Source: Verrucomicrobiia bacterium | Lineage (GTDB): Bacteria; Verrucomicrobiota; Verrucomicrobiia; Limisphaerales; JADLHS01 | Direction of reading: 5' to 3' | NCBI GenBank assembly: GCA_011525685.1 | Contig: WYBW01000032.1 | Span: forward strand, 1-64,000 | Length of the DNA: 64,000 nucleotides | Part shown: one piece after another, positions 19,952 to 21,842 of the stretch | Position numbering within the stretch: position 1 is the stretch's first letter | Layout: the number at the start of each line of letters is the position of its first letter | Made by a program: the position numbers and the translations under genes | The notes under the pieces: model-generated | The model's database searches: none | Told to the model about the DNA's origin: nothing | What the model saw: the letters and a program-made list of their open reading frames with translations, nothing else

Positions 19952-20989
19952 ATGCGCTTTGCTCGCTGTCTCAAGTTTTTTCTGGTCGCCGCCATTGCCG
20001 CGGCATTGATGATGGCGTGTACTTCGACGCGGTCGGTCGCCGGGTGGCAACGCTTCGAGTTCAAACAGCCCCGCATGGGCACGCTGTTCACCATCACGCT
20101 GTTTGCGCCGGACGAGACCCAGGCTCGCCAGGCCTCCGAGGCCGCGTTCGCCAAGATTGCCGCGCTCGAAAGAATGATGACGGACTACGATCCCGAGAGC
20201 GAACTGATGCGGCTTTCTCAGAAACCGGTGGGCCAGCCGGTGCGTGTGAGCGACGAACTGTTTGAGGTTTTGAAGAAAAGCCAGCGCCTGGCTGAACTGA
20301 CGGAGGGCGCTTTCGATGTCACCGTCGGACCGGTCGTCCGCTTGTGGCGGCGCGCGCGGCGGACGGAGACATTGCCGTCGCCGGAACTGCTGGCCAAGGC
20401 CCGGGGCGCGGTGGGTTACCGCAAGCTCAGACTCGATGCAGTCGCGCAGACCGTGACACTCACCGTGCCCAACATGCAACTCGATCTCGGAGGGATCGCC
20501 AAAGGTTACGCGGCCGACAAGGCACTGGAGGTCTTGAAACAACACGGCCTGCCGCGCGCGCTGGTCGTGGCCAGTGGGGACATCGCGATTGGCGATCCGC
20601 CGCCGGGCCAGCGCGGCTGGCGCATTGGCGTCGGAGGGCTGGAAGTCGGCCCCGCCGGGCTGGCCAAGAACCTTCGGCTTCGCAACGCCGCCGTTTCCAC
20701 CTCGGGCGACACCGAGCAATTCATCGAGATCGAAGGGGTGCGTTACTCTCACATTGTTGATCCGCGCACGGGACTTGGCCTGACCGAGCGATTGCAGGTC
20801 ACCGTCATCGCCCGGCACGCGGCGGACACGGACAGCTTCGCCACCGCGGTCAGCATTTTGGGTGCGAAGCGCGGACTAACCCTGGTGGAATCACAACCAG
20901 GGATGGCGGCCTTGATTTTGCGAAAGGACGGGAACAGGACCGAGATGTTCGAGTCGCGGAGATTCAAACGGATTCCGCTGGCCGACTGA
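19952..20989 (+). CDS. apbE: FAD:protein FMN transferase (lipoprotein)
   Basis: ApbE attaches FMN to threonine residues of secreted or membrane proteins such as Na+-translocating NADH:quinone reductase and RnfG. The 345-residue product is a lipoprotein: the hydrophobic leader ends LMMAC with the lipid-modified cysteine. The domain starts QPRMGTLFTITLFAP, contains MMTDYDPESELMRL and the flavin-binding LDLGGIAKGYAADKA, and ends with YSHIVDPRTG and HAADTDSFATAVSILG, which carries the Mg-binding Asp/Thr. No target flavoprotein gene is adjacent. Confidence 0.93.
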   Translation: MRFARCLKFFLVAAIAAALMMACTSTRSVAGWQRFEFKQPRMGTLFTITLFAPDETQARQASEAAFAKIAALERMMTDYDPESELMRLSQKPVGQPVRVSDELFEVLKKSQRLAELTEGAFDVTVGPVVRLWRRARRTETLPSPELLAKARGAVGYRKLRLDAVAQTVTLTVPNMQLDLGGIAKGYAADKALEVLKQHGLPRALVVASGDIAIGDPPPGQRGWRIGVGGLEVGPAGLAKNLRLRNAAVSTSGDTEQFIEIEGVRYSHIVDPRTGLGLTERLQVTVIARHAADTDSFATAVSILGAKRGLTLVESQPGMAALILRKDGNRTEMFESRRFKRIPLAD

Positions 20990-21140
20990 AGATGGCCGGT
21001 GAATCAGTGGGAAAGTTGGCCGGTGGGAGTCTCCTCATGCCACTCACTTCCCCACTCTCCCACCTGCTCACTTTCAAAGACTTTCCGGGTTTCCGCCGAT
21101 AAACTTGCCCCTTGCCTGCAAACCTCCATACTCCCGCGCG
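20990..21140. other. Gap with GTGGG/CCCAC-rich low-complexity repeat
   Basis: The gap holds GTGGGA/GGTGGGAG words followed by CCACTC/TCCCCACTCTCCCACC words, making a weak inverted repeat over about 21005-21070. A similar G-rich then C-rich block is found inside purL at 52441-52530, where it is translated. This one is non-coding. Confidence 0.45.
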
Positions 21141-21842
21141 ATGAAAATTTCTGTGGTGGGCATTCCGGGCATTGCCCTGGGCAAACACAACCTCAAAGAT
21201 CCGCGTCTGGATCAGGCGGACAAGCTGGTCGAGGCCAAGAAGAAGACCTACGCCCAGGTGGAGGTGGTGGGTGAAGACGCCACGCTGGAGGCCGATTCCA
21301 TCGTGGTATCGCGCGAGCGGCTGCCTGACGTAATCCTCAACGACCTGGAATTTGTGGAAACGCGTCTCGGGCGCGAGCCCTCCGCCGCCGAAAAGGCCGC
21401 CTTGGAGAAGATCCGCGCCGCGCTCGAAAGTGAGCGCACCGTTTTTCAAGCGGGTTTGAGCGCCGAGGAATTGCAGGCGGTCACGGCGCACAATTTCCAC
21501 ACGAACAAACCGGTCACCGTCGCGGAGGCCGCGGATTTGGAGAATCTCGACGCGTTGATGGTGCGCGCGTTTGCGGAAGCCGGTTACATCAGTTTCCTCA
21601 CCGTGGGCGGGAAGGAAAACCGCGCCTGGCCGATCCGCAAAGGCACAACCGCCTGGGAAGCCGGCGGCACGATCCACTCGGACATTCAAAAGGGATTCAT
21701 TCGCGCCGAGATCATCAGCTTTGCCGACTTCATCGCGGCGGGCGGTGAAACGGAAGCCAAGCGCGCGGGCAAGCTCCGCCTCGAGATGAAGCCCTACGTG
21801 ATGCAGGATTACGACCTGGTGAATTTCCGGTTCAACAAGTAA
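21141..21842 (+). CDS. YchF-like protein lacking the GTPase domain
   Basis: The C-terminal 95 residues (YISFLTVGGKENRAWPIRKGT to VMQDYDLVNFRFNK) match the TGS domain of YchF/OLA1, the universally conserved ribosome-associated ATPase. The N-terminus is another matter: where YchF has a P-loop GxPNVGKST, this protein has MKISVVGIPGIALGKHNLKD, with no GKS/T, and the DxxG and NKxE motifs are missing. Residues about 25-150 resemble only the coiled-coil part. At 233 residues it is about 130 shorter than YchF. The frame is intact without stops, so it looks like a maintained paralogue. It cannot bind nucleotide in the usual way. Monocistronic. Confidence 0.82.
   Translation: MKISVVGIPGIALGKHNLKDPRLDQADKLVEAKKKTYAQVEVVGEDATLEADSIVVSRERLPDVILNDLEFVETRLGREPSAAEKAALEKIRAALESERTVFQAGLSAEELQAVTAHNFHTNKPVTVAEAADLENLDALMVRAFAEAGYISFLTVGGKENRAWPIRKGTTAWEAGGTIHSDIQKGFIRAEIISFADFIAAGGETEAKRAGKLRLEMKPYVMQDYDLVNFRFNK

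Follow-up and report, generated by a model that had tools for sequence, protein, structure and literature searches.

A YchF reading frame without a nucleotide site

YchF is a ribosome-associated ATPase that is near-universal across life. One gene in the window (the whole 64,000-nucleotide stretch of Verrucomicrobiia contig WYBW01000032.1 analyzed here) raises the question of whether a YchF can persist, and do a job, once the part that binds nucleotide has gone. We found no earlier description of a YchF lacking its G domain in the open-access literature. The first-pass annotation had described the gene as a paralogue with a clean 233-codon frame, a well-kept C-terminal TGS domain, a P-loop altered to GIPGIALGKHNL and an otherwise missing G domain. 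The features discussed below are as follows.

21105..21132, + strand: promoter-like pair TTGCCC (21105-21110) and CATACT (21127-21132) with a 16-base spacer, 8 bases before the ATG; consensus match only
21141..21842, + strand: short, G-domain-less YchF gene, 233 aa plus stop; start backed by family alignment
21141..21311, + strand: G-domain stub, residues 1-57, lacking the P-loop and both switches (alignments and AlphaFold)
21312..21428, + strand: hairpin of two helices, counterpart of the helical (coiled-coil) domain of YchF, residues 58-96 (alignment, AlphaFold and profile)
21585..21839, + strand: TGS domain (PF06071), residues 149-233, from the Pfam match given below

The frame is indeed clean, opening with ATG and running 233 codons without an internal stop. 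Starting at an upstream TTG (21105) would lengthen the frame by 12 codons, but relatives align instead at the ATG (21141). The TGS domain is likewise as well kept as had been claimed, with PF06071 (YchF-GTPase_C) matching residues 150-232 at 109.4 bits (E 9e-32; cut-off 27) and 25 of the 32 YchF-invariant TGS positions retained. A complete canonical ychF, which the annotation proposed looking for in the same genome, lies on another contig of the assembly (G000:C20) as a 373-aa ORF with NVGKST and DIAG that scores 460.6 bits. The gene upstream of the short form (window 19952-20989) looks by eye like an ApbE-type FAD:protein FMN transferase lipoprotein.

Four blocks are missing from the G domain

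Alignment against canonical YchF defined the deletion as four absent blocks. The first removes the P-loop, helix 1 and switch I (~27 residues); the second removes switch II, just past the Walker-B strand; the third spans Arg105 to Asp124, with His114 within it; and the fourth runs from the NxxE motif through to the start of the TGS domain. The G1 motif GxxxxGK[ST] is found in 0/87 short members versus 33/33 canonical YchF proteins, and the switch II segment DxAG...GEGLGN is deleted in the short-form alignments. Among Verrucomicrobiae short forms, switch II positions 72-94 are conserved at or near 0, the exception being L76 (0.4), and conservation is 0.0 at H114, N207 and E210, meaning that the catalytic histidine and NxxE are gone. 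Overall, the short form keeps 3/68 YchF-invariant positions in the G domain and 5/10 in the helical domain, next to the TGS count given above.

The annotated P-loop, GIPGIALGKHNL, turned out to be something else, because its GK aligns immediately ahead of the YchF PDxRL and the true P-loop is deleted. A mutated yet working P-loop is ruled out, since this GK sits after the deleted P-loop and is unconserved, varying to GR, GT and GQ. The claim that the rest of the G domain is missing held for the nucleotide motifs, but a stub is left, comprising beta-1, strands at ~34-57 and the strand at 125-128. The residues GKHNxKDPRLDQ within the stub are type-specific and highly conserved, and are absent from YchF. 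The N-terminal profile of the short form matches canonical YchF only across approximately residues 61-129.

An AlphaFold2 model built with 52 members (pLDDT 95.9, pTM 0.88) predicts a YchF fold: a small alpha/beta stub of the G domain, lacking a nucleotide site, with the helical hairpin and the TGS domain attached to it. In this model, the stub strands fall at residues 2-6, 14-17, 34-36, 39-43 and 53-57, and the hairpin helices, which align to the YchF helical domain, at residues 58-76 and 82-96. The top ranks in both Foldseek and VIA-align were all YchF/OLA1 structures; 1jal aligned to 233/233 residues of the model with a Z of 21.2, and 8kie, in which YchF sits on the 50S subunit, gave a Z of 19.9. 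The short form thus resembles the YchF/OLA1 ATPases (TIGR00092; 1jal, 2ohf, 5ee0, 8kie) in its helical hairpin, TGS domain, fold, element order and descent, but it lacks all nucleotide-binding motifs, is ~130 residues shorter and scores 122.4 bits against the YchF equivalog TIGR00092, below the curated cut-off of 279.2. Stand-alone TGS proteins and the TGS domains of RelA/SpoT, ThrRS and DRG/Rbg1 share the beta-grasp TGS fold (3hvz, Z 8.7; RelA, ~7) but have neither the YchF helical hairpin nor the G-domain stub, and the short-form TGS matches only YchF-type TGS in sequence.

Short forms are widespread and under purifying selection

The short form is well conserved across many bacteria, and one phylum usually has it in place of YchF. 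Relatives at 57-90% full-length identity occur in ~50 Verrucomicrobiota assemblies and two from Omnitrophota. Of 384 genomes drawn from the window's class, 25 have the short form and are set apart by a clean E gap (1e-42 to 1e-9), while a draw from the Omnitrophota phylum (that of genome G398) yielded it in 61/193 genomes. A divergent short form, here called type B, was found in 13/197 genomes of another Verrucomicrobiota class. The type B model (pLDDT 94.8) has the same structural matches as the window protein; type B keeps only 16/32 TGS invariants and, given that reduced number, may do something else.

Dozens of members from independent assemblies are intact at 229-235 aa with no stops inside the matches. 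Between relatives, dN/dS is ~0.05-0.16 over the whole gene and ~0.04-0.24 over the first 50 codons, which lie within the stub. A pseudogene or assembly artefact is rejected on these observations, and the gene is neither unique to this assembly nor decaying with frameshifts in its relatives, either of which the first-pass annotation had named as grounds for dropping the idea. IMG/VR matches covered only the C-terminal portion of the query and never the stub by which the short form is recognized. One contig titled Bacteroidales (L098, JAEEKL010000091.1) carries a short form near-identical to those of rumen Verrucomicrobia L093 and L095, and is probably misbinned.

Probable replacement of, or coexistence with, long YchF

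Genomes carrying the short form differ in whether they also keep a long YchF. Among the 193 Omnitrophota genomes, 60 have the short form only, 1 has both, 111 have the long form only and 21 have neither. When 62 Omnitrophota-phylum carriers were searched with TIGR00092, long YchF was absent from 61; the sole Omnitrophota-phylum genome found with both (G826; L221 and L222) pairs a type-B-like short form with an eroded long YchF. The same search found no long YchF in the 13 type-B genomes, and a genome of the same family (f61) without type B, G229, has canonical YchF. Rumen Verrucomicrobia G400-G403 have the short form only. In the window's class, on the other hand, the short form and a complete YchF occur together in 25/29 tested carriers, the window's genome included. 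One genome, G539, holds two canonical YchF genes plus a short form. Incompleteness of metagenome-assembled genomes could hide single cases of long YchF, but not the overall pattern of absence, and the best reading is that the short form has replaced YchF in Omnitrophota.

Apart from the short form itself, TIGR00092 gave substantial matches in short-only genomes only to GTPases of ~320-380 aa. Seven of these, in seven genomes, were read from the DNA: five show a glycine-rich Obg N-terminus and two are frames cut at the fetched edge. No separate G domain of the YchF type came to light among them, and a separate G-domain gene was rejected on this sample.

Phylogeny suggests transfer into Verrucomicrobiae

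A tree of 67 rows was built from the columns of the helical and TGS domains. A single branch with support of 100/99 separates every short form from the long forms. The Verrucomicrobiae short forms make up a clade (100/100) placed among Omnitrophota, and a single clade of all Omnitrophota short forms was rejected (p 3e-8). The full-length YchF encoded in the window's genome, by comparison, groups in the clade of its own family. The simplest reading of these sequences is that the Verrucomicrobiae short form was transferred from an Omnitrophota-like donor, although the direction rests on diversity, because an AU test did not reject holding the nearest core Omnitrophota rows together (p 0.25) and so does not force Verrucomicrobiae inside them.

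Genomic neighbourhood and upstream layout

In Omnitrophota, the short form sits in the order kamA - EF-G - short form - purH - folC - mnmE - folE, with gene names checked on one locus (L196). Across the sampled loci, purH is next downstream in 20/20 and folC follows in 19/20. The Omnitrophota locus L215 has canonical ychF within the same ddl-ddl-kamA ... purH-folC neighbourhood, and another, L210, has an eroded YchF directly ahead of folC-mnmE; this shared setting fits erosion in place. No conserved neighbours were found in Verrucomicrobiae, where no family occurs in more than 7/51 loci, and no conserved operon was found around type B.

The promoter-like pair listed above lies close to the start codon, and similar layouts recur in the family. 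A TTGAC-like box, a TA-rich hexamer 14-18 bases further on and a start codon 5-9 bases after that were found in 19/52 relatives versus 8/259 background ORFs (13/259 if any start is allowed), although the members share ancestry and are hence not independent. This suggests that the short-form mRNA may be leaderless or near-leaderless. The layout is seen upstream of L051, L055, L060, L061, L063, L078, L081 and L094, and is far commoner there than at neighbouring ORFs. In E. coli, leaderless mRNAs are translated more when YchF is lost (PMC8138138), so an autoregulatory link through a leaderless short-form message is conceivable.

What the short form may do

We favor the reading, at a probability of roughly 60%, that the gene encodes an NTP-independent YchF, which in Omnitrophota replaces the enzyme in the same job and in Verrucomicrobiae is found beside the native YchF. 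It rests on the sequence and its deletions, on the predicted fold, on evidence of purifying selection, and on the finding that in Omnitrophota the short form and long YchF exclude each other at one and the same place in the operon. Precise internal deletions would have taken several parts from the G domain of an ancestral YchF, namely the P-loop, switches I and II, the segment with the catalytic histidine and the half that recognizes the base, with a small beta-sheet stub retained to hold the helical hairpin and TGS domain. In YchF, the helical domain and the TGS domain together make a positively charged cleft, and the protein binds ribosomes (PMC8779481); the short form would retain this RNA-sized cleft. 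We infer that its target is still the translation machinery and that it would bind RNA or the ribosome constitutively, with no switching by ATP. It would do the job of YchF alone in Omnitrophota, and in Verrucomicrobiae, most likely having come from an Omnitrophota-like donor, it would work alongside the native protein.

Several observations run against this reading. The Verrucomicrobiae carriers lack conserved neighbours, the AU test leaves their placement inside the nearest Omnitrophota rows unforced, and type B, as noted, keeps only half of the TGS invariants. In addition, the reported ribosome cross-links of E. coli YchF come from N20 in the ATPase domain, which they place as the main 30S contact (PMC8138138); this domain is missing in the short form, and the site on the ribosome may therefore differ. 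A ribosomal function of the short form is thus a prediction.

A different task altogether is unlikely. The helical-TGS unit may have been kept as a scaffold for something other than the ribosome, for example as a partner of EF-G, of purine/folate metabolism or of MnmE in tRNA modification, with YchF loss in the same genomes then coincidental or permissive. The conserved Omnitrophota operon with purH, folC, mnmE and folE would fit such a role, as would the strong conservation of stub residues that YchF does not have and the keeping of YchF by most Verrucomicrobiae carriers. In Omnitrophota, however, the short form and long YchF almost never occur together, and L215 has canonical YchF within that operon setting; both observations point to the same job.

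That the short form competes with full-length YchF at the ribosome, as first proposed, or regulates it as a dominant negative, we consider quite improbable. The frequent coexistence with complete YchF in the window's class and the retention of most YchF-invariant TGS residues speak for it, but YchF is absent from most carriers in Omnitrophota and among type B, and the reported 30S contacts in E. coli fall in the lost domain (PMC8138138). Competition as a general role is not supported, given the absence of YchF from those 61/62 Omnitrophota-phylum carriers, the 13 type-B genomes and the four rumen-type Verrucomicrobia; in Verrucomicrobiae, where both proteins usually coexist, it may occur. A decaying ychF copy or an assembly artefact is very improbable, as the frame disruption in L084 and perhaps L094, and the ending of L098 at a contig edge, are set against the dozens of intact members and their low dN/dS. 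The chance of a two-part YchF that draws its G domain from a separate gene is negligible, as no point in its support was found and five of the seven other GTPases read from short-only genomes show the Obg N-terminus, the remaining two being cut frames.

More tentatively, the NTP-independent reading could be carried further. Many Omnitrophota and one further Verrucomicrobiota class may run YchF function nucleotide-free, in which case the core task would be helical-TGS binding, and Verrucomicrobiae may have received their version by transfer and express it from leaderless mRNA, the message class that YchF reportedly regulates in E. coli. The role of YchF ATP hydrolysis is unknown (PMC8779481). 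A conserved natural YchF without its ATPase, whether it replaces or coexists with the enzyme, separates binding from switching; nature may already have run the experiment of a YchF without fuel, and the question is open to a complementation test.

Eroded long forms

Partial stages in the loss of a GTPase domain are rarely visible, and the eroded long forms of Omnitrophota and other Verrucomicrobiota classes represent them. These proteins ('MID') resemble the short form in having lost or changed switch II and in having the same TGS domain, and one (L210) adjoins the same folC-mnmE genes. Unlike the short form, they retain full length (340-357 aa), the P-loop lysine and the positions of His114 and NxxE, and they may still bind nucleotide. 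Their P-loops read GK[KR]T in the Verrucomicrobiota classes and, with DxAG absent, GKTT, GKST or GKKT in Omnitrophota.

In other Verrucomicrobiota classes, long YchF paralogues (L025, L026, L030, L037, L046, L110, L113 and L115) have a P-loop of the form GK[KR]T and no DxAG. In the six genomes checked, such a paralogue is the only YchF-type protein, and these are possibly nucleotide-binding but altered ATPases. Omnitrophota hold a graded series of YchF proteins of ~346-357 aa (L209, L211, L212, L213, L216, L219 and L222), in which switch II reads VDMQF, VDIPG, VDLGY or ELLPK and the P-loops are GKTT, GKKT, GKST or GKKK.
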